This document shows, piece by piece, positions 1,567-42,979 of a DNA stretch of 64,000 nt. The notes under the pieces are model-generated. The model was not told the DNA's origin and did not search any database. It worked only from the letters and a program-made list of their open reading frames with translations. Location: NCBI RefSeq assembly GCF_014856545.2, contig NZ_CP109811.1, positions 1,668,001-1,732,000 on the forward strand, read 5' to 3'. Origin of the DNA: Mesobacillus jeotgali. Lineage in GTDB: Bacteria > Bacillota > Bacilli > Bacillales > Cytobacillaceae. The translations under genes and the position numbers were made by a program. Each line of letters begins with the position of its first letter. The stretch's first letter is position 1.

Positions 1567-2668
1567 TTGCCAACGAAAAAAAACGACTCCAGACATATTC
1601 CTGATGATTGTAACATTTACGCTTTTGGCAGTAGGTTTAATCATGGTTTACAGCGCAAGTGCTGTCTGGGCGGATTATAAGTTCAATGATTCCTTCTTCT
1701 TTGCAAAACGGCAGATGCTGTTTGCAGGTGTCGGGATCGTCGCGATGTTCTTTATCATGAATATTGACTACTGGACATGGAGGACATGGGCAAAGGTCAT
1801 TTTGATCATCTGTTTTGTCCTGCTGATCCTTGTGCTGATCCCTGGAATCGGCAATGTGCGGAATGGTTCCAGGAGCTGGATAGGAGTAGGAGCATTCTCA
1901 GTACAGCCCTCAGAGTTTATGAAAATTGCGATGATTGCCTTCCTCGCGAAGTTCCTGTCAGAGAACCAGAAGGCGATCACGTCATTCAAGCAGGGACTGT
2001 TTCCTTCATTAGGACTTGTATTTTTGGCATTTGGCCTAATTATGCTTCAGCCCGATCTAGGTACAGGAACTGTCATGGTTGGCACTTCTGTGGTTATCAT
2101 CTTTATTGCCGGAGCCAGGATAAGTCATTTTGTCGGTCTCGGACTGTTAGGGGTGGCAGGTTTTGTAGGACTGATCATTTCAGCTCCATACAGGATGAAA
2201 CGGATTACATCCTTCCTTGACCCATGGCAGGATCCACTCGGAAGCGGCTTCCAGATGATTCAATCGCTGTATGCGATCGGACCAGGTGGGCTGTTCGGTC
2301 TTGGTCTTGGGCAAAGCAGGCAAAAATTCTTTTACCTGCCTGAGCCGCAAACTGATTTTATTTTTGCGATTCTTGCAGAAGAGCTCGGGTTCATTGGCGG
2401 TTCACTGATTCTTCTATTATTCTCATTACTGCTTTGGAGAGGTATAAGAATTGCACTGGGAGCTCCCGATTTATTCGGAACTTTCCTGGCGACTGGGATC
2501 ATCGCGATGATTGCGATCCAGGTAATGATCAATATCGGTGTTGTAACCGGGCTAATGCCTGTTACCGGTATCACGCTCCCATTCCTGAGTTACGGTGGTT
2601 CATCCCTGACATTGATGCTGATGGCTGTAGGGGTACTGCTGAATATCAGTCGCCACTCGCGATATTAA
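1567..2668 (+). CDS. spoVE: SEDS-family stage V sporulation protein SpoVE (start region frameshifted)
   Basis: A polytopic SEDS-family glycosyltransferase (FtsW/RodA/SpoVE) with about ten membrane segments. Landmarks are MVYSASAVWADYKF, RSWIGVG, QPDLGTG, the PEPQTDFIFA loop and the C-terminal ITLPFLSYGGSS. Position between murD and murG plus the sequence fit SpoVE, needed for spore cortex peptidoglycan, better than vegetative FtsW. The continuous frame can start at ATG 1532 with a weak ribosome site. However GAGGTG at 1554-1559 sits 7 nt before TTG 1567, which would read MPTKK then enter the SpoVE frame if the A8 run at 1576-1583 were A7. That gives 366 residues, the length I recall for B. 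subtilis SpoVE. An inserted A is therefore likely. Confidence 0.9.
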
Positions 2669-2675
2669 ACTGTTA

Positions 2676-2714
2676 CAAAAACAAAAGACCCTGCATCAGG
2701 GTCTTTTGTTTTTG
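2676..2714 (+). terminator. Rho-independent terminator after spoVE
   Basis: The arm ACAAAAGACCCTG pairs with AGGGTCTTTTGT around the loop CATC, and a T tract follows. It sits 8 nt past the spoVE stop, so it separates the murD-spoVE unit from murG. Confidence 0.9.
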
Positions 2715-3174
2715 ATAATTTTTCCTCCTGTAAGTTATGATTTAAACAGGAGCCGGAAATTCGGACATGATCTGTGAATATGTTAGGAATATGGCTTTGT
2801 TCATGCTATATTACATTTAAATAACAATATCTTTAAAAACTGTCCTGAAGTTTAGAATATAGTAGAATAGGGTAAAACCGGGGAGTGCCTTTTTTAAAGG
2901 CTTCTTTTCACCGTCATAATTTACATCACTGAATCCGGAAAAAACTGGTGTGTAAATCCAAGCGTGATAGACGTGATTAAAAAAGGCTGTTTTCGCCATT
3001 GATTGTTGCTTTTCAGACGGGTGCTCGTCTTCGGGATAATTAAGTAATCGGGCTTACTTCAGAAGATTTATGAAAAAGCATTGAATTATATTCGAAAATC
3101 CCGGGTGTCATTTAAATATTTGTTGAGAGAGTAACAGGGTTTACGAAAGAGCCTTAAAAAAGAGATAAGTTGCT
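2715..3174. other. Gene-free spacer between spoVE and murG
   Basis: About 460 bases with no coding sequence I can support. The one 60-codon minus-strand frame (2817-2999) resembles no family, and I see no ribosome site I would trust for it. It must hold the murG promoter. AT-rich -10-like strings exist (for example around 2858-2867), but none pairs clearly with a -35, so no promoter is called. Confidence 0.5.
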
Positions 3175-3186
3175 GAGGTGTGGAAA

Positions 3187-4282
3187 ATGAAGATTGCAGT
3201 TAGCGGCGGCGGTACAGGAGGGCATATTTACCCTGCGCTCGCACTCATAAGGGAAATTCAAAAAAAGGATGAAAATGTTGAGTTTCTTTACATAGGGACA
3301 GAGAAAGGCCTTGAAAGCAAGCTTGTGCCCAGGGAAAACATCCCGTTCAAATCCATACATATCACAGGATTCAAACGAAAAATTTCATTCGAAAACGTAA
3401 AGACGGTCCTGCGGTTTCTAAAAGGAGTTCGGGACAGTAAAAAAATGCTCAAGGAATTCAAACCAGATGTTGTCATTGGTACAGGCGGCTATGTTTGCGG
3501 GCCGGTGGTCTATGCTGCTGCGAAAATGGGCATACCTACAATTGTCCATGAACAAAATAGCGTTCCAGGTTTGACGAATAAATTCCTGAGCCGTTATGTT
3601 GATAAAATCGCCATTTGCTTCGAGGAAGCAAGAGAGTTCTTCCCTGAGCAAAAGGTTGTGCTGACTGGTAACCCTAGGGCGTCCGAGGTGTTGGGGCAGG
3701 ATGGAATCAAAGGCAGGTTATCTGCCGGCCTGAAGCTTAAAATCCCAACTGTTCTCATATTTGGCGGTAGCAGGGGTGCAAGGCCCATTAATGAGGCAGT
3801 CGTAAAAAGTCTGACCGAATTAAGCGGCAAACCGTATCAGGTTTTATATGTAACGGGTGATGTGCATTTTGAAGATGTCCGGAAAGAAGTTGAGCTTGTT
3901 GGAAATCCGGAAAATGTCATTATCAAACCATTCATACACAATATGCCAGAGGTGTTATCCGGGGTAGATTTAACAGTAGCAAGGGCAGGGGCGACTACGC
4001 TGGCTGAGCTCACTTCACTGGGAATTCCCAGCATATTGATTCCAAGCCCATATGTAACCGACAATCATCAAGAAAAAAAACGCCCGGGCATTAAGTGAAA
4101 ATGGTGCAGCCAAATTGCTGCTTGAAAAAGACCTCACAGGTCCCAAACTGGTTGAAAGCATTGACCATATTCTGGGCCGTGAAGAGAAGCTGGCAGAAAT
4201 GAAGAAGGCCGCGAAAAAACTAGGCATCCCTGACGCTGCCCAGAGACTGTACCGTCTCATGGAGGAATTGGCGGAAAAGTAG
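3187..4282 (+). CDS. murG: UDP-GlcNAc:lipid I N-acetylglucosaminyltransferase MurG (frameshifted)
   Basis: MurG makes lipid II from lipid I at the inner face of the membrane. It has the GT28 N-terminal [12 protein letters not shown] loop, the HEQNSVPG motif, a C-terminal domain starting [14 protein letters not shown], and the donor-site stretch RAGATTLAE. The intact frame stops at 4098, just after an A8 run at 4073-4080. Dropping one A gives HQEKNARAL and continues to the TAG at 4280-4282, for 364 residues against about 363 in B. subtilis. ATG 3187 is the start, since GAGGTG at 3175-3180 is spaced 6 nt. MurG is essential, so a real break here would be lethal. A consensus error is the likely cause. 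Confidence 0.93.
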
Positions 4283-4341
4283 CCTATAGGCATGCAGCTG
4301 CATAAACTGTTCAAAAGCTGTATCGTGAAAGGAAGGGTATT

Positions 4342-5250
4342 ATGAAGGATCTAGCTAGCAAACTTAGAGATTTGAGCATCGGTTCTATAAAAGAGAATGA
4401 ACCGCTCGCAAACCACACATCGATGAAAATAGGCGGACCTGCTGACATACTTATTGAACCTTCATCAATAGAAAATCTAAGAAAAGCGGTTGAAGTCATT
4501 AAGAATTCTGGTGTTAAATGGACCGTAATCGGCAGAGGATCGAATCTCCTCGTTTCAGATAAAGGAATTGAAGGTGCTGTTATCAAGCTGGGTTCCGGGC
4601 TTGATGATTTGGAGATTGATGGCACAAGAGTGACAGCTGGCGGAGGCCTTTCGCTGGTCAATTTTGCGATCACCATTAGTCGCAAAGGGCTCTCCGGACT
4701 GGAATTCGCAGGCGGCATTCCAGGGTCGATCGGCGGTGCGGTTTATATGAACGCCGGAGCACACGGATCGGATATCTCACAAATACTTGAGAAAGCATAT
4801 GTGCTTTTTGAAGATGGCTCTCTTGAATGGCTTACTAACAAAGAGATGAAATTCTCATATAGAACATCAGTCCTTCAGAAAGAAAGACCAGGGATTGTTG
4901 TAGGCGCCATTTTCCAACTTGAAGAAGGAAATAAGGATGAAATTGTCGCGGAGCTGCAAAAAAACAAGGATTATCGAAAAGAAACACAGCCATATAATTT
5001 TCCAAGCTGCGGCAGTGTCTTCCGGAATCCACTGCCAAATTATGCAGGAAATTTAATCGAAAAATCAGGCTTAAAAGGCCATCAAATTGGCGGAGCGCAA
5101 ATTTCCGAACTGCATGCGAATTTCATTGTAAACAAAGGAAATGCCAAGGCTGAGGATGTTCTCGGTCTAATCCAGCATGTAAAGGACACTGTCCTCGATT
5201 TACATGGTGTGAAAATGGAGACAGAGGTAGAAATTATCGGCCGGAAATAG
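4342..5250 (+). CDS. murB: UDP-N-acetylenolpyruvoylglucosamine reductase
   Basis: MurB reduces UDP-GlcNAc-enolpyruvate to UDP-MurNAc using NADPH and FAD. The 302 residues match the type II MurB common in Bacillus. Visible are the N-terminal [13 protein letters not shown], the FAD-binding [35 protein letters not shown] and SCGSVFRNP, which carries the catalytic serine. The start is ATG 4342 behind AAAGGAAGGG. It lies 59 bases after the true end of murG and a hairpin follows it, so murG-murB is probably one unit. Confidence 0.97.
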
Positions 5251-5321
5251 CAGGAAAGAGGTTCAGGCTGTCAATTTCTGTGATATAATAATTCATTAGA
5301 TTAGGATGCTTACCTGATAGA

Positions 5322-5360
5322 AACGGCATGGCCAAATTTTCATGCCGTTGGTTCTTCTTT
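5322..5360 (+). terminator. Probable terminator after murB
   Basis: The arms AACGGCATG and CATGCCGTT enclose an 11-nt loop, followed by a T-rich run (TTCTTCTTTTCTTG). It lies about 70 bases past murB and before divIB. Confidence 0.65.
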
Positions 5361-5512
5361 TCTTGTTGTGCTGCTTTACATAGCTTAATTAATTTGAATT
5401 TATAGGGCAGCTCCTGATCAAAAATTATTATAACGATGGCTATAACCTGCATGAGCAAGTAAAAAGGAGTTTTCTTCAGAGAATGGGTTCAGCCGATAAA
5501 GAGGGGATTGAA

Positions 5513-6304
5513 ATGGACAAGAGGAAAATCGTCTCGATTGAAGACCGGATTCCAAAGTTAAAACATCAAAGGCGCAAGAAAGCCAATCGCAGGCTTATCA
5601 TGCTGCTGGCTATGTTTTTTATATTAATAGCCGGTGTTATCTATTTTCAATCACCGCTTAGCAAGGTGAAGGATATTACTGTTTCAGGAAATGACTCCTA
5701 TTCTTATGAACATATCGTTGAAAAAAGCGGAATCTCCTTCGACACAAATGTGTGGAAAATCAGCAAGGGTGAAATTGAAGGGAAACTGGAAAAAATCCAG
5801 GAAATCAAGCAAGCTTCTGTGAACATAAAGCTTCCAAATACAGTCGACATCGTGCTTGAAGAATATAGCAGGCTAGCCTATATTTCAAAGGGAAAGAATT
5901 TTTATCCGGTCCTTGAGAATGGGAATATCCTTGGTGAAAAACAGATGGATGAAATCCCTGTCAATGCGCCCATTTTAATTGGATTTAAGGAAGGAAAAGT
6001 CCTGGATGAAATGATTGCTGCATTGGAGGAACTTCCAGAAGTGGTGATGAATTCAATTTCTGAAATCCACTCACAGCCAATTAAAACGGACCGATATCTC
6101 ATCAAGCTGTATATGAATGACGGATATGAGGTGAATGCTTCTCTCAGGACTTTTTCTGATAAAATGGCACATTACCCATCAATCGTCAGCCAGCTTGACC
6201 CTTCTAAGAAGGGTGTGATCGACCTTGAGGTTGGATCCTATTTTAAAGCATATGAAGCAGAGGAAGCTGAGGAAGTTGAAATTGAAAAAGAAAGTGAACA
6301 GTAA
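5513..6304 (+). CDS. divIB: Cell division protein DivIB (FtsQ)
   Basis: A bitopic division protein of the DivIB/FtsQ/FtsL/DivIC subcomplex. It has a basic cytoplasmic tail (MDKRKIVSIEDRIPKL), one membrane segment around residues 26-47, then an extracellular POTRA domain starting SPLSKVKDITVSGN, a beta domain, and an acidic Glu-rich tail. ATG 5513 is chosen because GAGGGG at 5501-5506 is 6 nt upstream. The in-frame ATG at 5483 has its nearest purine-rich site 14 nt away. The product is 263 residues, the usual size for Bacillus. It overlaps the start of the next gene. Confidence 0.93.
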   Translation: MDKRKIVSIEDRIPKLKHQRRKKANRRLIMLLAMFFILIAGVIYFQSPLSKVKDITVSGNDSYSYEHIVEKSGISFDTNVWKISKGEIEGKLEKIQEIKQASVNIKLPNTVDIVLEEYSRLAYISKGKNFYPVLENGNILGEKQMDEIPVNAPILIGFKEGKVLDEMIAALEELPEVVMNSISEIHSQPIKTDRYLIKLYMNDGYEVNASLRTFSDKMAHYPSIVSQLDPSKKGVIDLEVGSYFKAYEAEEAEEVEIEKESEQ

Positions 6305-6986
6305 TCGTGTAATTCTTTCAATCGTTTTCCTGGTCCTGGGCTTCATGGTCGCTTTTTCATTCCGTGTCACACAGGACGAGGGAGAAAAAGGCCAGGGCCT
6401 CACGGACAGACAGTGGGAGAAGCACTTAAGTTTGAGGAATGATTTAATAGAGCAGGAAGAAAAAAACCGAGAGCTCCAGAAAGAGTTGAATGCCAAGCAG
6501 GAAAAGGTGAGGGAAATAGAAGCCAGTCTTTCCAAAGAGGCTCAAGTTTTCTTTAACATGGCTGAGGACGCTGAAAAATACCGTATGTATCTTGGAAAGG
6601 TGAAGGTTAGCGGAAAAGGTGTAAAAGTAACACTGGCTGATGGAGAGTATGACCCTGATGAGAAAAATATCAATAATTATCTTGTGCATGAACATCATGT
6701 ATTCAAGGTGATCAATGAACTGTACATCTCAGGTGCAGCAGCTATTGCTGTGAATGGTCAGAGGATCTCACACAATTCCTATATATTGTGTACAGGCCCT
6801 GTTATTACTGTTGATGGCTACCAGCATCCTGCCCCATTTGAAATCACTGCGATTGGCGACCCCGATGTTCTTTCCTCCGCTCTTAATATTACCGGTGGGG
6901 TAAAAGATCAGCTTGTGAATGACCAGATCGTGTTTTCCTTAGAAGAAAAGGAAAACATTCATATCGATCCAATTTTGGGCAAATGA
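6282..6986 (+). CDS. ylxW: DUF881 (UPF0749) family protein, YlxW-like
   Basis: It has a short basic N-terminus, one membrane segment (NRVILSIVFLVLGFMVAFSF), a coiled coil (roughly residues 35-80), then the DUF881 domain with KVSGKGVKVTLADG and AIAVNGQRIS. The function is unknown. In Bacillus it sits between divIB and sbp, so a role near division is inferred from context only. The frame is open from 6225, but that part is inside divIB. TTG 6282, 9 nt after GAGG at 6269-6272, is the best start, with GTG 6294 as an alternative. A second DUF881 gene follows, probably a tandem duplicate. Confidence 0.82.
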   Translation: MKKKVNSNRVILSIVFLVLGFMVAFSFRVTQDEGEKGQGLTDRQWEKHLSLRNDLIEQEEKNRELQKELNAKQEKVREIEASLSKEAQVFFNMAEDAEKYRMYLGKVKVSGKGVKVTLADGEYDPDEKNINNYLVHEHHVFKVINELYISGAAAIAVNGQRISHNSYILCTGPVITVDGYQHPAPFEITAIGDPDVLSSALNITGGVKDQLVNDQIVFSLEEKENIHIDPILGK

Positions 6987-7016
6987 TTATCATCAGTTAT
7001 TAACTTCCCAATTAGG

Positions 7017-7049
7017 AAAGCCATAAATATTTAGGCAGGCTTTTTATTA
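7017..7049 (+). terminator. Weak hairpin with T tract between the two DUF881 genes
   Basis: AAAGCC pairs with GGCTTT across a 15-nt loop and is followed by TTATTAT. The stem is only 6 bp, so it may attenuate rather than stop transcription. Confidence 0.4.
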
Positions 7050-7090
7050 TGGATTAGACCATGTAAAGAAAAGGCTTTATAGAAAGCAAG

Positions 7091-7834
7091 GTGAAAGTAT
7101 TGGGCGGACCAAAGAATCTTAGCTTCAGCGTTATAGCTGCTATCATTGGATTAATGGTCGCCATTCAGTTTCAAACCGTGAAGGAACCGGAAGTCAGGGA
7201 TACACGTGACACTTGGCAGCTTCGGGAAGATTTAATGAAGGAGAAGGAATTACAGTCCAAGCTGCTTCTCGAAATCAGGTCAAATGAAGAGAAAATTGCT
7301 AAGTATGAAACTGAGAGGCAGCAAAGCAAGGAAGAAGTGCTTCGGGAAACACTCTCTGAATTAAAGGAAGAGGCAGGATTGACAAAGGTCACCGGACCTG
7401 GCATCACGCTTTCGATAGAACCTGCTTTCAGCCTAATAGTCGAAGGTGGCAATCCACCTTCAGTTTCTCCGGATATGCTCAAAAGGCTGTTGAATGAATT
7501 GAACTTATATGGCGCAAAGCATGTCTCCGTAGATGGTGAAAGAGTAATTAATACAACGGTCATCCGGGATATAAACAGGGTGACAAAAATCAATGGCCAT
7601 TCCTTGAATCGTTTTCCAATAGAAGTTAAAGTGATCACGGAAAATGGTGACGCAGCCGAAAAGCTATACAATCGTATGAAGGTTTCCACGGTTGCCGAGG
7701 ACTTCTTCATTGACAATTTGGAAGTCAAGGTAAACAGGCCTGTTGGCGATCTGGTTGTACCTGCCTATCAGGACACAATCAGGATCAGATACATGGAGTC
7801 TGCTAAAACAGAAAAAGAGGGAGGCAACGGGTAA
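7091..7834 (+). CDS. ylxX: DUF881 (UPF0749) family protein, YlxX-like
   Basis: This is a paralogue of the preceding gene. It has an N-terminal membrane segment (LSFSVIAAIIGLMVAIQF), a charged coiled coil (residues about 40-95), then the DUF881 core with GPGITLSIEP, LNLYGAKHVSVDGERV and INRVTKINGHSLN. It has 247 residues from GTG 7091. TTG 7100 is also possible, because AAGGTG at 7089-7094 would then serve as its ribosome site. The stop overlaps the sbp start by one base (TAATG), so the two genes are coupled. The molecular role is not known. Confidence 0.82.
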   Translation: MKVLGGPKNLSFSVIAAIIGLMVAIQFQTVKEPEVRDTRDTWQLREDLMKEKELQSKLLLEIRSNEEKIAKYETERQQSKEEVLRETLSELKEEAGLTKVTGPGITLSIEPAFSLIVEGGNPPSVSPDMLKRLLNELNLYGAKHVSVDGERVINTTVIRDINRVTKINGHSLNRFPIEVKVITENGDAAEKLYNRMKVSTVAEDFFIDNLEVKVNRPVGDLVVPAYQDTIRIRYMESAKTEKEGGNG

Positions 7835-8184
7835 TGTGGCTTCCAATCATGGGATTGGTCATTGGTGTCATTATTGGGCTATTGACCGATATCCGAATTC
7901 CGGAAGAGTATTCTAATTATTTATCAATCGCAATCCTTGCTGCCCTCGATACTTTGTTTGGCGGGATTCGCGCCCAGCTGCAAAATATTTATGATGAAAA
8001 AGTTTTCGTATCAGGTTTCTTTTTTAATATAGTATTAGCAGCAAGTTTAGCTTTTCTAGGTGTCCATCTTGGTGTAGACTTGTATTTAGCAGCAGTTTTT
8101 GCCTTTGGGGTAAGGCTGTTCCAGAATATAGCCGTCATCAGGAGAATAATATTGACGAAATGGTCAACGACAAGTGAAAAGTAG
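7834..8184 (+). CDS. sbp: Small basic membrane protein Sbp (DUF1290)
   Basis: The 116-residue hydrophobic protein has three or four membrane segments and the family's conserved stretches: EYSNYLSIAILAALDTLFGG, VSGFFFNIVLA, LGVHLGVDLY and FGVRLFQNIAVIRR. It is found next to ftsA in many Firmicutes and its biochemical role is not established. The start is ATG 7834, overlapping the ylxX stop, behind GAGGGAGG. Confidence 0.93.
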   Translation: MWLPIMGLVIGVIIGLLTDIRIPEEYSNYLSIAILAALDTLFGGIRAQLQNIYDEKVFVSGFFFNIVLAASLAFLGVHLGVDLYLAAVFAFGVRLFQNIAVIRRIILTKWSTTSEK

Positions 8185-8321
8185 AAAAAAAAATGATATT
8201 TTAAAAGGGAAATATTTAATTGTGACGAATAAAGTAATGTAATTAAAAAATGAAACGCAATTAGATAGTGGTTCGAAATTGTTGTTCTAACACTAGGAAT
8301 TGATGAAGGAGGTGCCACAGA

Positions 8322-9605
8322 ATGAACAGCAATGATATATACGTCAGTCTTGACATCGGTACATCCAGTGTGAAGGTAATCATTGGAGAAATGGTCAATG
8401 ACACATTAAATATAATTGGTGTTGGCAATGTTAAGTCCGAAGGGTTAAGGAAGGGCTCCATTGTTGATATAGATGAAACCGTTCATTCTATTAAAAGGGC
8501 AGTCGAACAAGCTGAAAGAATGATAGGTTTAAAGATTAACCAGGTGATTGTTGGTGTCACCGGCAATCATGTTTCCCTGTTGCCATGCCATGGCGTGGTT
8601 GCAGTTTCCAGCGACAATCGCGAGATCACGAACGAGGACGTAGCGAGAGTCATTGATGCTGCACAGGTGGTATCGATTCCTCCAGAGCGAGAGATAATAG
8701 ACGTTATTCCTAAGCAATTTATCGTGGACGGTCTTGATGAGATCAATGATCCAAGAGGCATGATCGGTGTAAGGCTTGAAATGGAAGGAACGATCATTAC
8801 TGGATCAAAGACTATCTTACATAATACTCTTCGTTGTGTTGAGCGGGCTGGACTTGAAATCGTGGATATTGGCCTGCAGCCGCTTGCTGCTGGGGCATTC
8901 GCGCTTTCAAAAGATGAAAAGAATATGGGTGTCGCAATGATTGATATCGGCGGCGGTTCATCCACGGTCGCTGTTTTTGAAAACGGGCACCTAAGAGGTA
9001 CATCAGTCATCCCGGTTGGAGGAGACCATATCACTAAAGACCTATCAATCGGTTTGCGTACTACAACTGAAGAAGCGGATAAATTAAAATTGAAGCATGG
9101 ACATGCCTTTTATGACCATGCATCGGAAGAGGAAGTATTCGAGGTTTCAATTATCGGCAGCGACCAGCAGCAGCAGTTCAACCAGCTGGAAGTGGCAGAT
9201 ATCATCGAGGCCAGAATGGAAGAGATTTTCTCCCTTGTCCAGGATGAATTGAAACACATGAACATAAGGGACCTGCCAGGCGGATTTGTCCTGACAGGTG
9301 GAACAGCCAATATGCAGGGTGTTCTGGAGCTTGCCCAGGATATTTTCCATAGCAGGGTAAGAATTGCCATTCCGGATTATATTGGTGTAAGGGAACCTCA
9401 GTACACCACAGCAGTCGGCTTAATCCAATTTGCATATAAAAATGCAAAATTAAAAGGAAAGAAAATGGAAGCAGCTTTTAGTGAAATGGAACCAAAAGAA
9501 AAGAGAGTTCAAAAACAGCCGCATCCAAAATCGAAGCCTGAGAAACAGCCTGAAGAAAAAGTCACCTCAAGAATGAAGAAATTTCTTGGCTACTTTTTTG
9601 AATAA
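8322..9605 (+). CDS. ftsA: Cell division protein FtsA
   Basis: This actin-like ATPase tethers FtsZ to the membrane and recruits later division proteins. The 427 residues include the phosphate-1 motif SLDIGTSSVKVIIGE, a 1C domain, phosphate-2 IDIGGGSSTVAVF near residue 208, and the adenosine motif GGFVLTGGTANMQGV. A linker rich in Lys and Glu leads to a C-terminal amphipathic helix (MKKFLGYFF) that serves as the membrane anchor. A strong GAAGGAGGTG ribosome site precedes ATG 8322. ftsZ follows after 40 bases with no terminator, so the two are co-transcribed. Confidence 0.97.
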   Translation: MNSNDIYVSLDIGTSSVKVIIGEMVNDTLNIIGVGNVKSEGLRKGSIVDIDETVHSIKRAVEQAERMIGLKINQVIVGVTGNHVSLLPCHGVVAVSSDNREITNEDVARVIDAAQVVSIPPEREIIDVIPKQFIVDGLDEINDPRGMIGVRLEMEGTIITGSKTILHNTLRCVERAGLEIVDIGLQPLAAGAFALSKDEKNMGVAMIDIGGGSSTVAVFENGHLRGTSVIPVGGDHITKDLSIGLRTTTEEADKLKLKHGHAFYDHASEEEVFEVSIIGSDQQQQFNQLEVADIIEARMEEIFSLVQDELKHMNIRDLPGGFVLTGGTANMQGVLELAQDIFHSRVRIAIPDYIGVREPQYTTAVGLIQFAYKNAKLKGKKMEAAFSEMEPKEKRVQKQPHPKSKPEKQPEEKVTSRMKKFLGYFFE

Positions 9606-9645
9606 TCAGAGCTAACGGGAAATCGGCGAATTAGGAGGATTTGTC

Positions 9646-10788
9646 ATGTTGGAATTTGATACGAATTTAGATTCACTTGCTACTATAAAAGTTATCGGTG
9701 TTGGCGGCGGCGGAAATAATGCGGTTAACCGAATGATCGAACACGGTGTCCAAGGTGTGGAATTTATCGCGGTCAACACAGACGCACAAGCACTTAACCT
9801 TTCCAAAGCTGAAATCAGAATGCAAATCGGCGCAAAATTGACGCGCGGACTTGGTGCAGGAGCAAATCCAGAGGTAGGTAAAAAAGCTGCCGAGGAAAGC
9901 AAAGAACAAATTGAAGAAGTACTAAAGGGCGCAGACATGGTATTCGTCACAGCTGGTATGGGCGGAGGCACTGGAACTGGTGCAGCGCCAGTAATCGCAC
10001 AGATCGCTAAAGATCTTGGTGCGTTAACAGTGGGTGTTGTTACACGTCCGTTTACATTTGAAGGACGCAAGCGTGCTGGGCAGGCTGGCGGCGGAATCTC
10101 TTCTATGAAGGAAGCAGTAGATACACTGATCGTCATCCCTAACGACCGTTTGCTTGAGATTGTTGACAAGAGCACTCCGATGCTTGAAGCATTCCGTGAA
10201 GCGGATAATGTTCTGCGCCAGGGTGTCCAGGGTATTTCTGACCTAATTGCTACACCTGGTTTGATCAATCTTGACTTCGCTGACGTAAAAACGATCATGT
10301 CCAATAAAGGTTCAGCCTTGATGGGCATTGGGGTAGCATCAGGTGAAAACCGTGCTACCGAAGCAGCCAAAAAAGCTATTTCATCTCCATTGCTTGAAAC
10401 ATCACTTGATGGAGCTCAAGGTGTCCTGATGAATATCACTGGCGGCACGAATTTGAGCCTTTATGAAGTTCAGGAAGCTGCAGATATTGTTGCTTCTGCT
10501 TCAGATCAAGATGTAAACATGATCTTTGGTTCTGTTATCAATGAAAACTTAAAAGATGAAATTATTGTTACGGTGATTGCAACAGGCTTCAATGAGGAAG
10601 TCGTCCAACCAAAGCCGACAAGACCAGGTTTTGGCGGACAGCAAAAGCCAGGTATGGGAGCGATCAAGCGCGAACAGCCGAAACGTGAAGAAATCCAGCA
10701 GGAAGCACCAAGAAGCAACCAGTCGCCACAGGGTGAGGATGCCCTTGATATCCCAACATTCCTGCGCAACCGCAACAGAAGACGCTAA
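9646..10788 (+). CDS. ftsZ: Cell division protein FtsZ
   Basis: The tubulin-like GTPase that forms the Z ring. It shows the nucleotide-binding [13 protein letters not shown] near residue 20, the tubulin signature [13 protein letters not shown] near residue 104, and the catalytic T7 loop [11 protein letters not shown] near residue 205. A variable Gln/Pro-rich linker then leads to the conserved C-terminal peptide [13 protein letters not shown], which binds FtsA, SepF and ZapA-type partners. SepF is encoded 5 kb downstream. At 380 residues it has normal length. ATG 9646 is preceded by TTAGGAGGA. Confidence 0.98.
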
Positions 10789-10799
10789 TATTACTGCAG

Positions 10800-10831
10800 A
10801 AGGACATAGCCGAAACGGCTATGTCCTTTTT
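10800..10831 (+). terminator. Rho-independent terminator after ftsZ
   Basis: An 11-bp perfect stem, AGGACATAGCC with GGCTATGTCCT around a short loop, is followed by five Ts. It closes the ftsA-ftsZ unit. Confidence 0.93.
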
Positions 10832-11266: not shown

Positions 11267-11386
11267 TCTAGCTCCAGCGCCTAGCCCCTCGAGACGTTTC
11301 GGTCCGCCCAATGAAGTCAAAGAACGACTTCACTGGTCGGCCCTCCAACGCTTGTCGGGGCTGACCAAGGCGCTTGCGCTTTTCTT
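11267..11386 (+). repeat. Interspersed imperfect palindrome, family A, copy 1
   Basis: The element begins TCTAGCTCCAGCGCCTAGCC and ends GGCGCTTGCGCTTTTCTT. Its outer arms AGCGCCT and AGCCCC pair with GGGGCT and AGGCGCT, and a central GAAGTC-AAAGAAC-GACTTC hairpin is flanked by imperfect pairing. Nearly the same sequence recurs at 37041-37157 and in pieces at 38905-38976, all in the same orientation. It lies 13 bases before spoIIGA. Confidence 0.85.
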
Positions 11387-12382: not shown

Positions 12383-13101
12383 ATGAAAAATTTGCGGCTT
12401 CGGTTATCCTATTACTGGTATAAATTATTAATTAAACTAGGCTTGAAAACAGATGAAATATATTATATCGGCGGTAGCGAAGCGTTGCCACCTCCTTTAA
12501 CGAAAGAAGAGGAAGAAGTGCTGTTGCATAAACTGCCAAAAGGGGATAAAGCAGCGCGGTCGATCCTGATTGAAAGGAATTTGAGACTCGTTGTTTACAT
12601 CGCACGTAAATTCGAAAACACAGGCATCAATATAGAAGACTTAATCAGTATTGGAACAATCGGTTTAATTAAAGCGGTCAATACCTTTAACCCAGAGAAA
12701 AAGATCAAGCTGGCGACCTATGCATCGAGATGTATTGAAAATGAAATCCTCATGTATCTGCGCAGGAATAATAAACTTCGGTCAGAAGTTTCCTTTGATG
12801 AGCCGCTGAATATTGATTGGGATGGAAATGAACTTCTGCTGTCTGATGTTCTTGGTACAGATGATGATATTATCACTAAAGATCTCGAATCCAATGTTGA
12901 TAAAAAATTGCTGGTTAAAGCGCTGCAGCAGCTTTCTGACCGTGAAAAGCAAATCATGGAATTGCGTTTCGGACTTGGGAGCGGTGAGGAGAAGACCCAA
13001 AAGGATGTCGCGGATATGCTGGGAATTTCACAGTCCTACATTTCACGTCTTGAAAAAAGAATCATAAACGTTTGCGTAAAGAATTCAATAAAATGGTATA
13101 G
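12383..13101 (+). CDS. sigE: RNA polymerase sigma-E precursor (3' end frameshifted)
   Basis: The mother-cell sigma factor for early sporulation. It has an N-terminal pro-sequence of about 27 residues ([16 protein letters not shown]) that SpoIIGA removes. Region 2 includes [22 protein letters not shown], and region 4 ends [14 protein letters not shown]. The open frame runs to 13204 with an unrelated tail. Restoring one A at 13066-13068 (ATAAACG to ATAAAACG) gives [13 protein letters not shown] and a TAG at 13099-13101. That makes 239 residues, exactly the length I recall for B. subtilis SigE. The start is ATG 12383 behind AGAAGGAGG. The indel is most likely a consensus error. Confidence 0.94.
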
Positions 13102-13205
13102 CAGAAAAATTTTCGCCAAAATATTTTTAACGTTGATAATCGTGATAAAACAACGGTTTACTGGACAATTCTTCCTGAAACCAGTCCAGGCTTCAGGTAA
13201 ATAGT

Positions 13206-23586: not shown

Positions 23587-23605
23587 GACTATAGTTTAAT
23601 AAGTC

Positions 23606-24309
<704 letters not shown>

Positions 24310-24317
24310 ATAATGCC

Positions 24318-24429
24318 CTTTTAAATGCAGTCCAGAGAGGCTGAAAAGGGGGAACGCATGGCTGATGGCTTTGTGCGGGTTTTTTTACCCATACCCTCTT
24401 TGTATCTACTGGCAAAGAGGGTTTTTTTA
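24318..24429 (+). promoter_or_regulatory. PyrR attenuator 2 (pyrR-pyrP)
   Basis: The binding loop CAGTCCAGAGAGGCTG lies at 24328-24343. The terminator pairs ACCCTCTTTG with CAAAGAGGGT and ends in seven Ts (24392-24429). It sits directly before pyrP. Confidence 0.93.
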
Positions 24430-24452
24430 TACAAAGAGAGAGGGGAATAAAT

Positions 24453-25772: not shown

Positions 25773-25779
25773 TACCACC

Positions 25780-25924
25780 TTTTAAAGAAGTCCAGAGAGG
25801 CTTATAAGGGTGATATGAGCGAACCGGCTTATTCATGATGCACGCAAACCCGAAAATTCGGGGTTTATGCCGGCAAGCTCATAGTCAAGCACCCTGTTGA
25901 ACAGAAAACAGGGTGCTTTTTTTT
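25780..25924 (+). promoter_or_regulatory. PyrR attenuator 3 (pyrP-pyrB)
   Basis: The binding loop AAGTCCAGAGAGGCTT lies at 25788-25803. The terminator at 25889-25924 pairs GCACCCTGTT with AACAGGGTGC and ends in eight Ts. It controls the biosynthetic genes from pyrB on. Confidence 0.93.
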
Positions 25925-32435: not shown

Positions 32436-34821
<2,386 letters not shown>

Positions 34822-34825
<4 letters not shown>

Positions 34826-35457
34826 AAAGAGAAATAGCAGAAGCATTGCTTGAAATCGAAGCTGTCAGCTTACAGCCTGAAAATCCATTTACATGGTCTT
34901 CCGGACTGAAGTCGCCGATTTACTGTGATAACCGACTCACTCTGTCTTTTCCTCCCATCCGCAGAAGAGTGGCTGAAGGGCTGAAGAGCTTGATTGTTGA
35001 ACACTTTCCAGAAGCTGAGATGATCGCGGGAACGGCTACTGCTGGGATACCTCATGCCGCCTGGGTCAGCGAACTGCTTGATTTACCTATGACTTATGTA
35101 CGCTCGAAAGCAAAGGGACACGGAAAAGGGAATCAAATCGAAGGAAAGGTGACTCAAGGCCAAAAGGTCGTTGTTGTCGAAGATTTAATCTCAACTGGAG
35201 GCAGCGTCATTGAGGCGGTCGAGGCATTGCGAGAAGCAGGCTGCGTAGTACTTGGAGTTGTTTCGATTTTTACATATGAACTAGAAAAAGGCAAGCAGCA
35301 GCTGGATTCTGCAAATATCTCAGCACACTCACTGACTGACTTCACAACTCTTGCTAACCTGGCAGAGGAAAAAGGACTTATCACTAAAGAAAGTCTTGAT
35401 AGCCTTGCAGAATGGCGCAAAAATCCATCAGAATGGGGAACCGCCAAAAATATTTGA
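34822..35457 (+). CDS. pyrE: Orotate phosphoribosyltransferase
   Basis: PyrE joins orotate and PRPP to give OMP. It is a 211-residue type I PRTase with [16 protein letters not shown] near the start, the hood-loop Lys/Arg in [16 protein letters not shown], and the PRPP motif [20 protein letters not shown] near residue 119. ATG 34822 overlaps the pyrF stop as ATGA and has AAAGGTG upstream. The frame from 34804 is inside pyrF and is not used. It is the last gene of the operon. Confidence 0.97.
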
Positions 35458-35462
35458 CTGAG

Positions 35463-35486
35463 AGCAGCCTATTGGCTGCTTTTTCT
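35463..35486 (+). terminator. Rho-independent terminator of the pyr operon
   Basis: AGCAGCC pairs with GGCTGCT around TATT and is followed by TTTTCT, directly after the pyrE stop. Confidence 0.88.
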
Positions 35487-35567
35487 ACTTTAGTAAAATA
35501 TGGTTAAATTTATAGATAGGATGTGATAAAATTAAAAAGTGGAATTTTCTGATAACGAGGTGCTAAT

Positions 35568-36068
35568 GTGAAGAAAATAATCGGAATTATAGCAATCATG
35601 GCTGGTTTTAGTCTTTTAAGTGCATTTGTGGTTCCGGGTTTAGCAGATAAGCTTCAATCCAAAAAGGCTGCAAAACATGTTTTAGAAAATTTGGTAGAAC
35701 AAAATTACGAAGCAGCGTTTGATGGGATTCATTTTTATGATGTTGCATCTGATTTATCTCCAACCATCCCCTATGGAGAGGCAAAAAAAGTTTGGAGTAA
35801 ACGGGTTCAGTCTTTAAAAAAGAACGGCACTTATCTAGTTGACTATAAAAATCTTTATGTGGAGCTGGATGATACATACCCGACTGGAAAAGTGGATTTG
35901 GTTATGATGATCAATGGTAAGGAAAAGTATCTTGAAGATGTATCACTGTGGTTTGGGTTTCAGGACAGAAAATGGGGGCTTGGGAATTTACACGACTTCA
36001 TAAATACAGATCAAGAGGAAGATTGGGAAAAAGCCCTAAGCGGAAATGTTGCCGCCCCTAAAGAATAG
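35568..36068 (+). CDS. Small membrane-anchored or secreted protein of unknown function
   Basis: I do not recognise a family. The 166 residues begin with a positively charged, hydrophobic signal or anchor (KKIIGIIAIMAGFSLLSAFVVPGL, about residues 2-25) and no lipobox Cys. A mixed soluble domain follows, starting AAKHVLENLVEQNYEAAFDGI, which resembles the opening of DUF4878/NTF2-like stress lipoproteins only loosely. It contains no Cys. The GTG start at 35568 follows ACGAGGTG. The gene has its own terminator. B. subtilis has cysH-type genes in this place, so it belongs to a variable locus. Confidence 0.75.
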   Translation: MKKIIGIIAIMAGFSLLSAFVVPGLADKLQSKKAAKHVLENLVEQNYEAAFDGIHFYDVASDLSPTIPYGEAKKVWSKRVQSLKKNGTYLVDYKNLYVELDDTYPTGKVDLVMMINGKEKYLEDVSLWFGFQDRKWGLGNLHDFINTDQEEDWEKALSGNVAAPKE

Positions 36069-36080
36069 TTATGAACGGAA

Positions 36081-36109
36081 GTGTATCCTGGAGCAGGGTG
36101 CACTTTTTC
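36081..36109 (+). terminator. Terminator after the 35.6-kb hypothetical gene
   Basis: GTGTATCCT pairs with AGGGTGCAC (two G-T pairs) around GGAGC, followed by TTTTTCT, 12 bases past the stop. Confidence 0.75.
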
Positions 36110-36257
36110 TATCGGGGTAAAAAAAGAATTAAAGTTTAACAACTTTTAAGGGTTAACCTGTTGGCATGCAACTTAATAAGTGTGTTTCAATATAATTATA
36201 AGCCTTACTGCAATAATGCCAGGTATATAAATTTTATATAGTAGGAGGAAAAGACTC

Positions 36258-36905
36258 ATGGAACAGGTCATACAGTTGCTGAAAAATATTGATAGCAGTC
36301 TCCACTACTATATTGATGAATATGGGGCAGCCATTTATATTATGTTGTTTTTGATTGTCTACTTTAAAACGGCTTTTGTAATCCTGACATTTTTGCCAGG
36401 CGATTCAATGGTCTTCGCGAGCGGTACTCTGGCGGCTGCCGGAGATTTAGATTTTAAAATCTTGTTTATGCTTTTTGCTGCTGCAACTATTTTGGGTGAC
36501 AGCCAGAATTTCTTCATCGGGAAACAGCTCGGGAAGTTAAACTCCGAAAACCGTTTTCTATACCGTTTAACATCAGATAAATCGATTGGCAAGGCGAAGG
36601 TTTTTTTGTCTGACTATGGAAGGGTAGCCATTACCTCTTCACGGTTTGTCCCGCTCATGAGAACCTCTGTACCATTTGTTTCAGGATACACAGGATATGA
36701 GTTTAAATCATTCTTAAGCTACAACCTTATTGGTGGATTGATGTGGACAGCCTTCTGGCTGACAGCAGGATTTCTACTCGGTAATATTGCCTGGGTAGAG
36801 AATAACTTATTCCTCACATTGTTGATGGTTTCTTCTACTGCTTTTATTCCTGCAATTATTGGTTTTGTAAAACAATATAAAAAAAGGAAAGAGGCAGTAG
36901 CCTGA
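36258..36905 (+). CDS. DedA-family (VTT domain) membrane protein
   Basis: The 215-residue protein has about five hydrophobic stretches. Marks of the DedA/VTT superfamily are the LPGDSMVFASGTLAA motif near residue 48, GDSQNFFIGKQLG, and RFVPLMRTSVPFVSGYTGYEF near residue 134 with its conserved Arg. Members act as flippases or transporters for undecaprenyl phosphate or phospholipids; which substrate applies here cannot be told. The start is ATG 36258 behind TAGGAGGAA. It stands alone between two terminators. Bacilli carry several paralogues, so no gene symbol is given. Confidence 0.9.
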   Translation: MEQVIQLLKNIDSSLHYYIDEYGAAIYIMLFLIVYFKTAFVILTFLPGDSMVFASGTLAAAGDLDFKILFMLFAAATILGDSQNFFIGKQLGKLNSENRFLYRLTSDKSIGKAKVFLSDYGRVAITSSRFVPLMRTSVPFVSGYTGYEFKSFLSYNLIGGLMWTAFWLTAGFLLGNIAWVENNLFLTLLMVSSTAFIPAIIGFVKQYKKRKEAVA

Positions 36906-36942
36906 TAGGCTGATGGAAATTTGTGAGAGGAACAGCTAAAGT

Positions 36943-36984
36943 AAAACCCGCCGGTAGAACTGAATACCAGGCGGGTTTCTTGTT
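36943..36984 (+). terminator. Terminator after the DedA gene
   Basis: AAACCCGCC pairs with GGCGGGTTT, extended inside by GGTA/TACC, and followed by CTTGTTT. Confidence 0.8.
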
Positions 36985-37040
36985 TCGTAGGAAATTATAA
37001 AATTATTTAGTTGTGGATAACTACATGTAATTTTTTTAAT

Positions 37041-37157
37041 CCAGCTCCAGCGCCTAGCCCCTCGAGTCGCTTCGGTCCGCCCAATGAAGTCAAAGAACGA
37101 CTTCACCGGTCGGCCCTCCAGCGCTTGTCGGGGCTGAACGAGGTGCTTGCGCTTTTT
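37041..37157 (+). repeat. Interspersed imperfect palindrome, family A, copy 2
   Basis: Nearly identical to 11267-11386 apart from scattered substitutions, and in the same orientation. It has AGCGCCTAGCCCC near the start, the GAAGTC...GACTTC central hairpin, then GGGGCT and a degenerate closing arm GAGGTGCTTGCGC. It ends 8 bases from the stop of rqcH, which is on the other strand. Confidence 0.87.
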
Positions 37158-37164
37158 GTTCAGT

Positions 37165-38873
37165 TTACTGTTTCAATTTCAGAATCATATCTTCATCCGG
37201 TGTCACGTATACGGTCTGTTGCTGTTCGTAAATGACAAACCCTGGCTTTGCGCCGGCTGGCTTCTTCACATGTCGCACCTTTGTGAAGTCGACAGGGACG
37301 GAACTTGAATTACGTGCTTTGCTGAAGTAAGCCGCAATCTTTGCTGCCTCGATAATGGTTTCTTCTGCTGGCTCTTTGCTGCGGATGACCACGTGGGATC
37401 CGGGGATATCTTTTGTGTGAAGCCATATTTCATCCCGGGCTGCCACCTTATTTGTTAAGTAATCATTTTGCTTATTATTTTTTCCGACGAGTATTTCTGT
37501 TTCATTGGTAGATCGGTATTTTTCAAGCTGCGGCTTCAGGTTTTGTTTATTTTTATTACCTTTTTTCTGCCGGGCCCGAATATATCCACCCTCAATCAAT
37601 TCTTCCCTGATTTCTTCGATATCTTTTGGCGATGCAGCCTCTACCTGTTGCAGGAGAGCATCGAAATAAGAAACCTCGGCTTTTGCTATTTCAATTTGTT
37701 CTTTGACAATATTCACAGAGTTCTTTGCCTTTTGATATTTGGTGAAGTATCTCTGGGCGTTTTCCGAAGGTGTTTTCCGCGGCTCCAGCGGAATTGTGAT
37801 GGTAGCTCCGTCTTCATCATAATAATTAACAACGGTAATTTCCTTCATGCCTTTTTCGGCCATAAAAATGTTAGCGGTCAGCAGCTCTCCGAATAATTGA
37901 TACTGCTCAGCTTTTTTTGCATCTTCAAGAGTCGTTTCCAGCTTTTTGATTTTCTTCTCATTTTTCTCTTTTTCATTTGCAATCAGTCTTTCGAGATCAT
38001 TGCCCTGCTGCTTGACCCGGTCACGTTCTGCTTTGCCAAAATAATAACGATCGAGCAGGCTGCTCAGGGACTCAAAGGACTTTGCTTCTCCCTTCAGGTG
38101 CTCAAGCGGAATCAGGTAAAAGGCTTCTTTATTGCTTCCATTTGTGATCGAAGGTTTATACCGATGTTGCCTGAGCTCATCCATCACTGATAAAAAGGCC
38201 TTTGGAATAGTTGTGCGGTTTGCAAGTCCAGCTTTAAAGACTATTTCCCTCGCCAGTACCGGTGACACACCGGCAAAACTTGAAACTAGCTGCTTATCAA
38301 TTTTTCCAGCGTTAAAATCAATAAATCTCAAGACATCTTCTTCCTGTGCCTCGAATGGATTCATTTTTTCCTGCTGCGGAGGCATTACGTACTCTTGCCC
38401 GGCATGATGGCCCTGTGTGTATTCACGGCAAATGAAACATGCTTGATGCTATCGAGAATCATGTTTCTTTGTTTATCGACGATGATTATATTGCTGTGGC
38501 GTCCCATGATTTCGACGATCAATTGTTTGTAGGAGATATCGCCGATTTCATTTCTGCCTTTTATTTCAAAAATAATCATCCGGTCAAGGCCGGCCTGTTG
38601 GATGTCTTCTATGATCGACCCTTCAAGGTGCTTGCGCAGCAGCATACAGAACATTGGCGGCTCATTGGGGTTATCATATTGCTCATTTGTGATCTGGACT
38701 CTGGCGTAGCTCGGGTGAGCAGACAAAAGGAGCTTATGGTTAACTCCGTTTGCCCTCACAGCCAGAATTATTTCATTTTTATAAGGCTGGTGGATTTTAT
38801 TGATTCGTCCCCCTTTAAGAAGGGTGGAAAATTCGTTTGTGATGGCTCTTGTAAACAATCCGTCAAATGACAT
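37165..38873 (-). CDS. rqcH: Ribosome quality control factor RqcH (NFACT family; frameshifted)
   Basis: RqcH binds stalled 50S subunits carrying peptidyl-tRNA and adds C-terminal alanine tails. The N-terminal part (from ATG at 38873, [13 protein letters not shown]) has the NFACT-N motifs [21 protein letters not shown] with the conserved Asp-Arg, and MGRHSNIII. The C-terminal part has the coiled coils and the NFACT-R domain with [14 protein letters not shown]. The gene is read as two frames (38873-38385 and 38385-37165). Adding one base at the lone G at 38397 (minus strand GGC to GGCC) joins them as [10 protein letters not shown], giving 569 residues against about 572 in B. subtilis YloA. It is divergent from the Ca2+ ATPase gene. 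Confidence 0.93.
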
Positions 38874-38904
38874 GTAAAATACATCCTTTTCTATTTATCT
38901 GAAG

Positions 38905-39092
38905 CCTTGTCGAGGCTGATCAAGGCGCTTCCACTTTTCTTTATCTAGCTCCAGCGCCTAGCCCCTCGAGTCGCTTGTCTAGTGTCGCCTCCTAGAAACT
39001 CCGAAACTTCAACTTCGCCGTCAGAAGCAAAAAGCGCTTCTTTGTCGGAGTCTCCAGTTTCTGCGTTTCTGGACAGTCGCCTTCGCTTTTCT
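38905..39092 (+). repeat. Mosaic palindromic repeat: family A halves plus a family B hairpin
   Basis: 38905-38942 is a degenerate 3' half of family A (CTTGTCGAGGCTGATCAAGG). 38944-38976 is a 5' half of family A (TCTAGCTCCAGCGCCTAGCC onward to TCGAGTCGCTT). It runs straight into a different palindrome, 38977-39092. That one has arms TAGAAAC/GTTTCTG and CTCCGA/TCGGAG and a central GAAGC-AAAAA-GCGCTTC loop. It fills most of the 307-base rqcH-ATPase spacer. Confidence 0.8.
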
Positions 39093-39180
39093 ATTCTATA
39101 AACATCTTATCATTTTTTTGGACAGGGCTGAATAAGCTTTCTTTAGAGTAGGACAAACAAGGAGGAAGTGTGATGGCCCC

Positions 39181-41870
39181 ATGAAGTTCCATGAGATGAA
39201 TGAAAATGAAATAGCTAGTGCCTTAAGAACAGATTTTACAGAAGGATTGGAAGAAAAGGAAGTAAAACGCAGACGTGATCAGCATGGATATAACGCATTG
39301 GCCGAGGGGGAGAAACAATCGGCCCTGTTATTATTCTTCAGCCAGTTTAAGGATTTCATGGTATTGGTGCTCCTTGCAGCTACGTTGATATCAGGACTCC
39401 TCGGAGAAATGGTCGATGCGATTGCCATCATAGCCATTGTTCTTGTAAATGGTATTTTAGGGTTTTTCCAGGAAAGAAAGGCGGAAAAATCACTTGATGC
39501 CCTGAAAGAACTTTCCGCTCCGCAAGTCCATGCTTTGCGTGATGGCGAGTGGACAAAGATTCCGTCAAAGGAAGTTGTCCCTGGTGACATTCTTAAATTT
39601 ACAAGCGGGGACAGGATTGGCGCAGATATCCGCTTGATTGAATCCAGGAGCCTGGAAATTGAAGAATCAGCATTGACGGGAGAGTCTGTTCCTGTACAAA
39701 AAAACACAAGTCCGCTGAGGATTCCTAACCCGGGACTGGGTGATATGGAAAATATGGCGTTCATGGGCACGATGGTCACAAGGGGAACTGGAACTGGTGT
39801 TGTCGTTGCTACAGGCATGAAAACTGCGATGGGCCAGATTGCTGACTTGCTGCAGACGGCTGAAGCACAGGAAACCCCACTTCAGCGCAGGCTTGAACAA
39901 TTAGGGAAAATCCTGATAACGGCCGCTCTTTTCCTAACCTTATTGGTAGTAGGAATTGGCGTACTCCAGGGGCATGACCTGTATACAATGTTCCTTGCAG
40001 GGGTCAGTTTGGCAGTTGCCGCCATCCCTGAAGGTCTGCCGGCAATTGTTACTGTTGCGCTGTCACTGGGTGTCCAGAGAATGATCAGAAAGAATGCGAT
40101 CGTCAGAAAGCTTCCTGCGGTGGAGACGCTTGGCTGCGCATCTGTCATTTGTTCTGACAAAACGGGAACGATGACTCAGAACAAAATGACCGTTACCCAT
40201 TTGTGGAGCGGCAATAAAACCTGGACTGTGGATGGTGTGGGATACTCACCAACAGGATTATTCTTTTATAAAGACAAAAGCGTGGATCCTCATAGTGAAA
40301 AGTCATTGCAGCAGCTGCTGACATTTGGGATGCTTGCAATCACGCTGAAATGATTGATAAAGATGGCGAGTACACAATTGATGGTGACCCTACTGAAGGA
40401 GCTCTGCTGGTAGCCGCAATGAAAGCGGGTTACAGGAGAGAAAGCCTGCTGGACCAGTTTGAAATTGTTAACGAGTTCCCTTTCGATTCCAAGCGAAAAA
40501 TGATGAGTATGATCGTGAAGGACAAAACTGGACGGAAATTTGCTGTTGTAAAAGGTGCACCGGATGTCCTGATTGGATTAAGTGATTCAATTCTCTGGGA
40601 TGAAAGGCAGCAGCGCCTGACAAAAGACTTGACTGCTAAAGTCCAGGGGGCGATTGACGAGCTGGCTGGCAACGCATTAAGAACAATTGCCATAGCCTTC
40701 AAACCGATTCCGCAAAACACTGTCGTCCTTCATGAAAATGAAGCCGAAAAAGACCTGGTTTTCATCGGATTGCAGGGTATGATCGACCCGCCGCGACCTG
40801 AGGTGAAAACAGCTGTAAAAGAATGCCGCGACGCAGGTATTAAAACTGTGATGATTACTGGTGACCATGTTATCACTGCGAAGGCGATTGCTAGTCAGTT
40901 AGGGATATTAACCAAAGGCAGCAAAGTCTTAGATGGCAAGGCATTATCCGAGTTGTCTGTTTCAGAGCTAGAGGATGTAGTCGACGATGTTTCGGTTTTT
41001 GCGAGAGTTTCGCCTGAACATAAGCTTAAAATTGTAAAAGCTTTGCAAAATAGAGGGCATATCGTTGCGATGACTGGTGACGGCGTAAATGATGCGCCAG
41101 CCATTAAAGCTGCAGATATAGGAGTGGCTATGGGGATAACAGGTACAGATGTAGCAAAAGAAGCATCTTCCCTCGTACTCCTCGATGATAACTTCGCCAC
41201 AATAAAAGCAGCCATTAAGGAAGGCCGAAACATCTATGAAAATATCAGAAAGTTCATCAGGTACCTCCTGGCTTCCAATGTTGGGGAGATTTTGGTCATG
41301 CTGTTCGCAATGATCCTTGGCTTGCCTCTCCCGCTCGTGCCGATCCAGATCCTCTGGGTGAATCTGGTGACAGATGGCCTCCCTGCGATGGCATTAGGGC
41401 TTGACCAGCCTGAGGATGATGTAATGAAAAGGGATCCGCGCCATCCTAAGGAAGGGGTATTTGCCCGGGGGTTAGGCTGGAAAGTCGTGTCAAGAGGTTT
41501 CCTGATTGGATTGATGACTCTGATTGCATTCATGATAGTCTATAATAGAAATCCGGACGACTTGGTATATGCACAGACCATTGCGTTTACAACACTCGTG
41601 ATGGCACAGTTAATTCACGTATTCGACTGCAGGAGCGAAAAATCAATCTTCGCCCGCAACCCTTTTGAGAACAAATATTTAGTTTGGGCCGTAATTTCTT
41701 CGTTGGCCATGGTCCTTGTTGTGATCTATTCGCCAGTACTGCAGCCAATATTCCACACTGTTCCAATAATGGCGATGGATTGGTTATTGATCCTTGGCTT
41801 ATCGGCAATTCCGACATTTTTGCTTGCGGGAACATTTTTTGCAAGAAAAACAAAGAGAAATATGATATAA
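39181..41870 (+). CDS. yloB: P-type calcium-transporting ATPase YloB (frameshifted)
   Basis: A P2A-type Ca2+ pump of about 896 residues. Features are the actuator TGES loop (ALTGESVPV), membrane motif VAAIPEGLPAIVTVALSLG, phosphorylation site CSDKTGTMTQNK, KGAPDVL, and the hinge MTGDGVNDAPA, with ten membrane segments. The frame breaks at 40353. Adding one T to TT at 40334-40335 gives FGMLCNHAEMIDKDGEY and joins the second frame (to 41870). ATG 39181 is 15 nt from GGAGG, which is too far. ATG 39173 is ideally spaced but out of frame by one base in CCCC (39177-39180), hinting at a second lost base. B. subtilis YloB is expressed in sporulation. Confidence 0.93.
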
Positions 41871-41876
41871 TCCGTT

Positions 41877-41912
41877 AGGTAATAGAGAAGGCTCTATTGC
41901 CTTTCTTTTTTT
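41877..41912 (+). terminator. Rho-independent terminator after the Ca2+ ATPase
   Basis: GGTAATAGAG pairs with CTCTATTGCC around AAGG and is followed by TTTC and a T8 run. Confidence 0.9.
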
Positions 41913-42104
41913 TACTAATGCTCTTTCGTAATCTTTCCTGCATCTACAGCTGAAAAGTTTTATGAAATCCTAAGCTTGGAAGTTCCTTTCGAGGGAAGGA
42001 GCGGAGTTGAAAAAAACATAAATTTAGACATTACATAAATGAATAAGCCTGTTCCACGGGTCTACAGGAAACTCGACTTTTTAGAAAGAATGGATGTGTC
42101 TGAA

Positions 42105-42979
42105 ATGGTCGTCAGTATGACTGGGTTTGGAAGGAGCAGGACTGAATCTGACAGGTTCAGTGTCACAGTCGAGGTCAAAACGGTCAATCACCGTTTTTGT
42201 GAATTCCATATTCGCATGCCCCGGCAGCTCCTGAAAACGGAAGAAAAAATAAAAAAGAAACTCGGCGAACATATAAAAAGAGGGAGAGTCGAAGTATTTG
42301 TAACTTTGGAGGGCCAAGGCATAGTTAGCCGAAGTGTACATATTGACTGGGCAGCCCTGGACGAATTAGTCCATCACATAACTGAAATCAAGAACAGGTA
42401 CAGCATTACGGGGGATATTGAGCTCCGTGACATTGTCAGCAGGCAAGAAATCATCCATATTGAAGAAATAGAAGCTGAAAATGAAGAGCTTGAACTTCTT
42501 GTCCTTTCAGCCGTTGAGGATGCCGGGAGCCAATTGGTCCAAATGCGTATGCTGGAAGGATCAGCACTTGAAAAGGATGTATTGCAGCATATCCAGCAGT
42601 TAAAAGAAAACATCACGAGCGTGAAGAAGCTGGCGCCGAGTGTTGTAGAGCAGTACCGTGAGAGGCTTCAAAAGAAAATGGCTGAATTGACGGATAGCCA
42701 GGCAGATGATGACAGAATCCTTACCGAGGTTGCCTTCTTTGCAGATAAAGCTGATATTAGTGAAGAGATTGCCAGGCTTGAAAGCCATGTAAGTCAATTC
42801 AAAGAAATTTTGAAGGCGAATGAGCTCTTGGCAGGAAATTGGATTTTCTGCTTCAGGAAATGAATCGCGAGGTCAACACAATCGGTTCCAAGGCGAATGA
42901 TTCAAGAATTGCCAGGGAAGTAGTCGAGATGAAAAGCCTCCTGGAAAAGGTTAAGGAGCAAGTGCAAAATATAGAGTAG
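42105..42979 (+). CDS. yloC: YicC-like endoribonuclease family protein YloC (frameshifted)
   Basis: A YicC/YloC family protein; members are endoribonucleases that affect RNA turnover and stress survival. It begins [20 protein letters not shown], keeps [20 protein letters not shown], and has the C-terminal DUF1732 region with [16 protein letters not shown]. The open frame ends at 42863. Adding one C at 42825 (GAGCTC to GAGCCTC) gives [19 protein letters not shown] and a TAG at 42977-42979. From ATG 42105 that makes 291 residues, the length I recall for B. subtilis YloC. ATG 42090 is a possible earlier start; the frame open to 42039 has no better site. Confidence 0.9.

Follow-up and report, generated by a model that had tools for sequence, protein, structure and literature searches.

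Six conserved genes in a 64,000-nucleotide stretch of the Mesobacillus jeotgali chromosome (G000:C1:1668001-1732000, hereafter the window) each differ by a single base from their counterparts in related genomes, and, judging from sequence comparison, these differences are very probably indel errors in the assembly consensus, the genes of the organism itself being intact. All six differences are present in the record and, in alignments, in none of five relatives, whose orthologues are intact at every site, the combination of private break and intact orthologues that indel errors would produce. One base is gained in the spoVE-type gene and in murG, and one is lost in sigE, the rqcH-type gene, the P-type ATPase gene and the yicC-like gene, which confirms the two extra and four missing bases of the initial annotation.

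Six single-base differences in the window

The chromosome of the record (G000) is a single contig of 4,835,561 bases. The comparison set comprised five of the 18 same-genus genomes listed, G018, G003, G006, G017 and G007 (94.9, 93.4, 87.6, 87.8 and 87.3% identity to the window, respectively), and gene order in all five is collinear with the window. G018 served as the reference for whole-gene alignments of window genes. Gene names rest on Pfam for all six and additionally on NCBIfam for murG, sigE and yicC. The affected genes are the following:

1532..2668, plus strand: spoVE-type gene (FtsW/RodA/SpoVE family), extra base in the A run at 1576-1583
3178..4282, plus strand: murG, extra base in the A run at 4073-4080; frame ends at 4098
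12383..13204, plus strand: sigE, missing base at 13066, near the end
37165..38873, minus strand: rqcH-type gene (NFACT), missing base at about 38397-38402
39181..41870, plus strand: P-type cation ATPase gene, missing base at 40334
42039..42979, plus strand: yicC-like gene, missing base at 42825; frame ends at 42863

The family frame is lost in four of these genes. MurG is truncated at 306 of 367 aa, within the C-terminal glycosyltransferase domain, the run being A8 in the record and A7 in all five relatives. The rqcH-type gene is split into frames of 162 and 406 aa that overlap by one base, and the ATPase gene into frames of 390 and 506 aa that overlap by four; the ATPase site reads TT in the record, TTT in G018, G003, G006 and G007, and CTCTG in G017. 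In the yicC-like gene, the C-terminal part is lost or changed, with C in the record and CC in the four relatives that could be placed. Short site alignments were unplaceable for G006 at rqcH and for G017 at yicC, and the whole-gene alignments show no break there. As a separate observation, G006 (contig C55) carries a 188-base insertion 47 bases into the yicC-like gene that aligns to window position 42039.

The initial annotation described all six genes as broken, each by an indel in a short homopolymer. The single-base indel holds at every site, but the spoVE and sigE frames remain open with an altered end. These two sites lie near gene ends, at base 9 of spoVE and 37 bases before the end of sigE, and apart from the indel the alignments there match the relatives almost exactly; the other four sites are interior. 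The spoVE frame runs for 378 aa from an upstream ATG and has a different N-terminus, against 366 aa in G018, and the extra base falls within a few codons of the start that G018 uses, a TTG behind GAGGTG. In sigE, the frame extends to 273 aa (239 in G018), retains sigma regions 2 and 4 and still scores above the NCBIfam SigE cut-off. The homopolymer context stands for the A8 runs of spoVE and murG and fails for sigE, where the missing base is a lone C beside AAA and belongs to no run. At rqcH, a homopolymer is uncertain given the mixture in the relatives, with GGG in G018 and G003 only, TGG in G017 and AGG in G007. The spoVE run is A6 or A7 in the relatives, except that G003 has A8 by substitution, with length unchanged. 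The two A8 runs at these sites are the only ones on the plus strand of the window, which also holds 22 A7, two A9 and four T8 runs.

As controls, 62 genes were defined in G018 that are conserved in at least three of the four other relatives, and 59 of them align to the window. A net frame change was found in 8 of these 59, the six genes above among them. The seventh is a 2-base difference 37 bases before a gene end, seen at the same place in G003 and close by in both G017 and G007; the eighth is a gene cut by the window end. Among the relatives, net frame changes occur in 3 (G003), 5 (G006), 4 (G017) and 5 (G007) of the 62 genes, all within the first 66 bases, within the last 40 bases or at the cut end.

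Private indels were counted in the window only, an indel qualifying when at least four of the five other genomes gave the same difference; they number 12 in the record, 6 in G018, 4 in G003, 14 in G006, 9 in G017 and 14 in G007. All 12 in the record are one-base changes, and five lie inside genes by the margins of the script; one in-gene case, at 23765, is common to G018 and near a gene start, and rqcH escapes this test owing to its variable context. In-gene private indels of one base number 1 in G018, 1 in G003, 3 in G006, 2 in G017 and 1 in G007, and these lie close to starts or form a compensating pair. G006 and G007 each have one in-frame indel as well. The total of private indels is thus not raised in the record, which is set apart by its uncompensated breaks inside conserved genes.

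A further one-base difference private to the record, at 25916, lies in a T8 run ending the third of three PyrR binding sites (23601-23731, 24313-24430 and 25774-25924), the only Rfam gathering-score matches in the window. It may be another consensus error or natural variation.

Breaks beyond the window

The comparison of the record with G017 covered a 200-kb stretch at the start of the contig, 664 kb surrounding the window and two 100-kb segments, at 2.9 and 4.0 Mb. Under a looser filter, which requires a single shift that is not compensated and is flanked on either side by conserved protein, 25 breaks were found in the record (808 genes) and 15 in G017 (815 genes), over 742 kb each. Under a strict filter (gene of at least 150 aa, break 90 bases clear of the start and 36 clear of the end, and 85% protein identity on both sides), whose cut-offs were set after inspection of the looser list, the record had 12 interior breaks and G017 had 1, each over roughly 742 kb of conserved coding sequence (two-sided binomial p = 0.0034). 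Both filters give the excess over a relative expected of indel errors, with uneven density. The strict filter retains four of the six window sites, spoVE and sigE being dropped. Some strict breaks may be real pseudogenes.

Eight strict breaks lie outside the window, two of them 2-base shifts. One-base shifts relative to G017 affect the NCBIfam-named genes proS, recA and mutS (G000:C1 at about 1800622, 1846648 and 1877493; loci L147, L224 and L226), proS lying in two frames that overlap by four bases. The piece at 1573119 gave no NCBIfam family match. With G003 genes as reference, 225 kb contained nine breaks in the record, none in G017 and one in G007; one of the nine, at 1614499, is probably before the true start. 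Other references gave 4 or 2 breaks in G003 and 3 in G007, and these G003 and G007 breaks fall within frames 102-160 aa long or lie 78 bases into a 670-aa frame.

Earlier counts were set aside, being made up mainly, in all genomes, of misassigned starts, shadow frames and compensated indels. A raw tblastn count gave 4 and 12 in the record and 1 and 4 in G017; a second gave 12 in the record, 13 in G003, 9 in G017 and 4 in G007; a third, over 664 kb, gave 32 in the record and 17 in G017, before later filters reduced these to 25 and 15 and then to 12 and 1. Separately, a stretch of G017:C1 at about 1725436 matches two distant places in G000:C1, at about 1560485 and 1612185, which suggests a dispersed intergenic repeat.

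Within the window, about 58 kb contain four strict breaks, and the 684 kb outside contain eight (p = 0.005 by Poisson and 0.011 by conditional binomial test), a contrast that is weak because the window was picked for having many breaks. A uniform error rate was considered, and the window is denser than it predicts, with that same reservation. On the consensus-error reading, the assembly would carry a low level of indel error elsewhere in the chromosome and a denser patch in the window, as a patch of low coverage would explain.

These findings amount to a data-quality warning, the six genes being otherwise ordinary. Contrary to the expectation that all six would be misread as pseudogenes, automated annotation would probably show murG, rqcH, the ATPase gene and yicC, together with proS, recA and mutS, as fragments, while spoVE and sigE need not be affected in this way and would probably appear as genes with odd ends. 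Conclusions on gene loss, on sporulation or on a mutator state could go astray if drawn from this record. Extrapolation from the 8 strict breaks per 684 kb outside the window, or from the 12 per 742 kb including it, predicts about 50 to 70 genes of this kind chromosome-wide, assuming about 4.2 Mb of coding sequence.

Consensus error against real mutation

The breaks fall regardless of function, as errors would, and include essential single-copy genes, murG in the window and proS outside it. Proline-tRNA ligase is essential. A whole-genome search of G000 found one copy of murG and, for proS, the gene itself plus one 20% match in another frame, and no second copy of either. Depletion of MurG in B. 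subtilis is lethal, with growth arrest followed by lysis in the experiments described in PMC3433793. That two single-copy essential genes are hit tips the balance towards error.

Constraint also continues beyond the breaks. Relative to G018, the ratio of non-synonymous to synonymous differences beyond the six breaks is 33:182, against 539:1728 for other window genes, the differences having accrued on both lineages. By gene, the counts are 1:31 for spoVE, 1:7 for murG, 22:96 for rqcH and 9:45 for the ATPase gene, and the 0:0 of sigE and 0:3 of yicC are almost uninformative. Since old decay would have raised the ratio, the 33:182 excludes old pseudogenes, though not very recent mutations.

It is unlikely but conceivable that the indels are real and very recent, in a mutator strain gathering frameshifts, for instance during laboratory passage without need of sporulation. 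Such a history would suit the splitting of mutS and recA in the record, the sporulation roles of sigE and spoVE and the two sites in long A runs. However, loss of mismatch repair favours long runs, and four of the six changes are losses at lone bases or in runs of two or three. A mutator should also have more private indels, in genes and outside them, and the 12 of the record in the window compare with 6, 4, 14, 9 and 14 in the relatives. The single-copy murG and proS, discussed above, are further points against it.

We give still less credence to real indels in genes whose proteins are produced all the same, either through transcriptional slippage on A runs or through coupled translation of the two halves. 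Slippage would draw on the two A8 runs, yet four sites have no long run, and the shifted frame occurs in none of the five relatives, so there is no conserved recoding. The short frame overlaps at rqcH, the ATPase gene and proS would suit coupled translation, but such overlaps often form of their own accord, since any TGA that follows an A, G or T has a start codon in the adjacent frame. A combination, in which a strain with real indels in murG, proS and other genes lived by slippage or coupled translation against a mutator background, is just as improbable. Least probable of all are old pseudogenes in a decaying genome, since, for all that the frames are interrupted as written, each gene shows one event and constraint beyond the break, murG is among the genes hit and the chromosome is of ordinary size and collinear with its relatives.

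Consensus error, as the initial annotation proposed, gains support from the related genomes, through the private breaks, their spread beyond the window, the single-copy murG and proS and the retained constraint. It is deduced rather than shown; reads would be expected to contradict the consensus, with sequencing or base calling as the presumed cause. Several observations count against it: the completeness rating of the assembly is 99.99%, the strict cut-offs are post hoc and the looser filter gives only 25 against 15, two strict shifts are of two bases, the density is uneven and the 12 private indels are fewer than the 14 each of G006 and G007. In addition, the false insertions described in PMC12007338 show no link to long runs, whereas both insertions here sit in A8 runs.

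Comparison with known frameshifts and sequencing errors

Frameshift pseudogenes of mutator or decaying lineages resemble the present case in their interrupted frames, and mutS is split in the record; they differ in that the genes affected here include essential single-copy ones, and sequence beyond the breaks is still under constraint. Programmed frameshifting and transcriptional slippage share with it the A8 runs of spoVE and murG. In such systems the shifted frame and its site would be conserved in relatives, whereas the shifted frame is absent from all five compared and four sites lie outside long runs.

The nearest likeness is to indel errors of long-read assemblies, as treated in the work on Kastor (PMC12007338) and Homopolish (PMC8011154). 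According to the account in PMC12007338, long-read indels that fragment genes are chiefly false deletions, located within or after runs of two to eight bases, with a few at lone bases, and false insertions follow A or T at any run length; PMC8011154 describes systematic Nanopore errors as mainly homopolymer indels that lead to frame shifts and an excess of pseudogenes. The present changes are rarer than in the unpolished examples given in these papers, and both insertions are in A7 runs. In common with the errors described there, they are single-base changes, deletions outnumbering insertions, that lie for the most part in short runs and in some cases at lone bases, and they split conserved genes in a way that relatives reveal. 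The four losses fit this known long-read pattern, and the two gains in A runs fit it less specifically.
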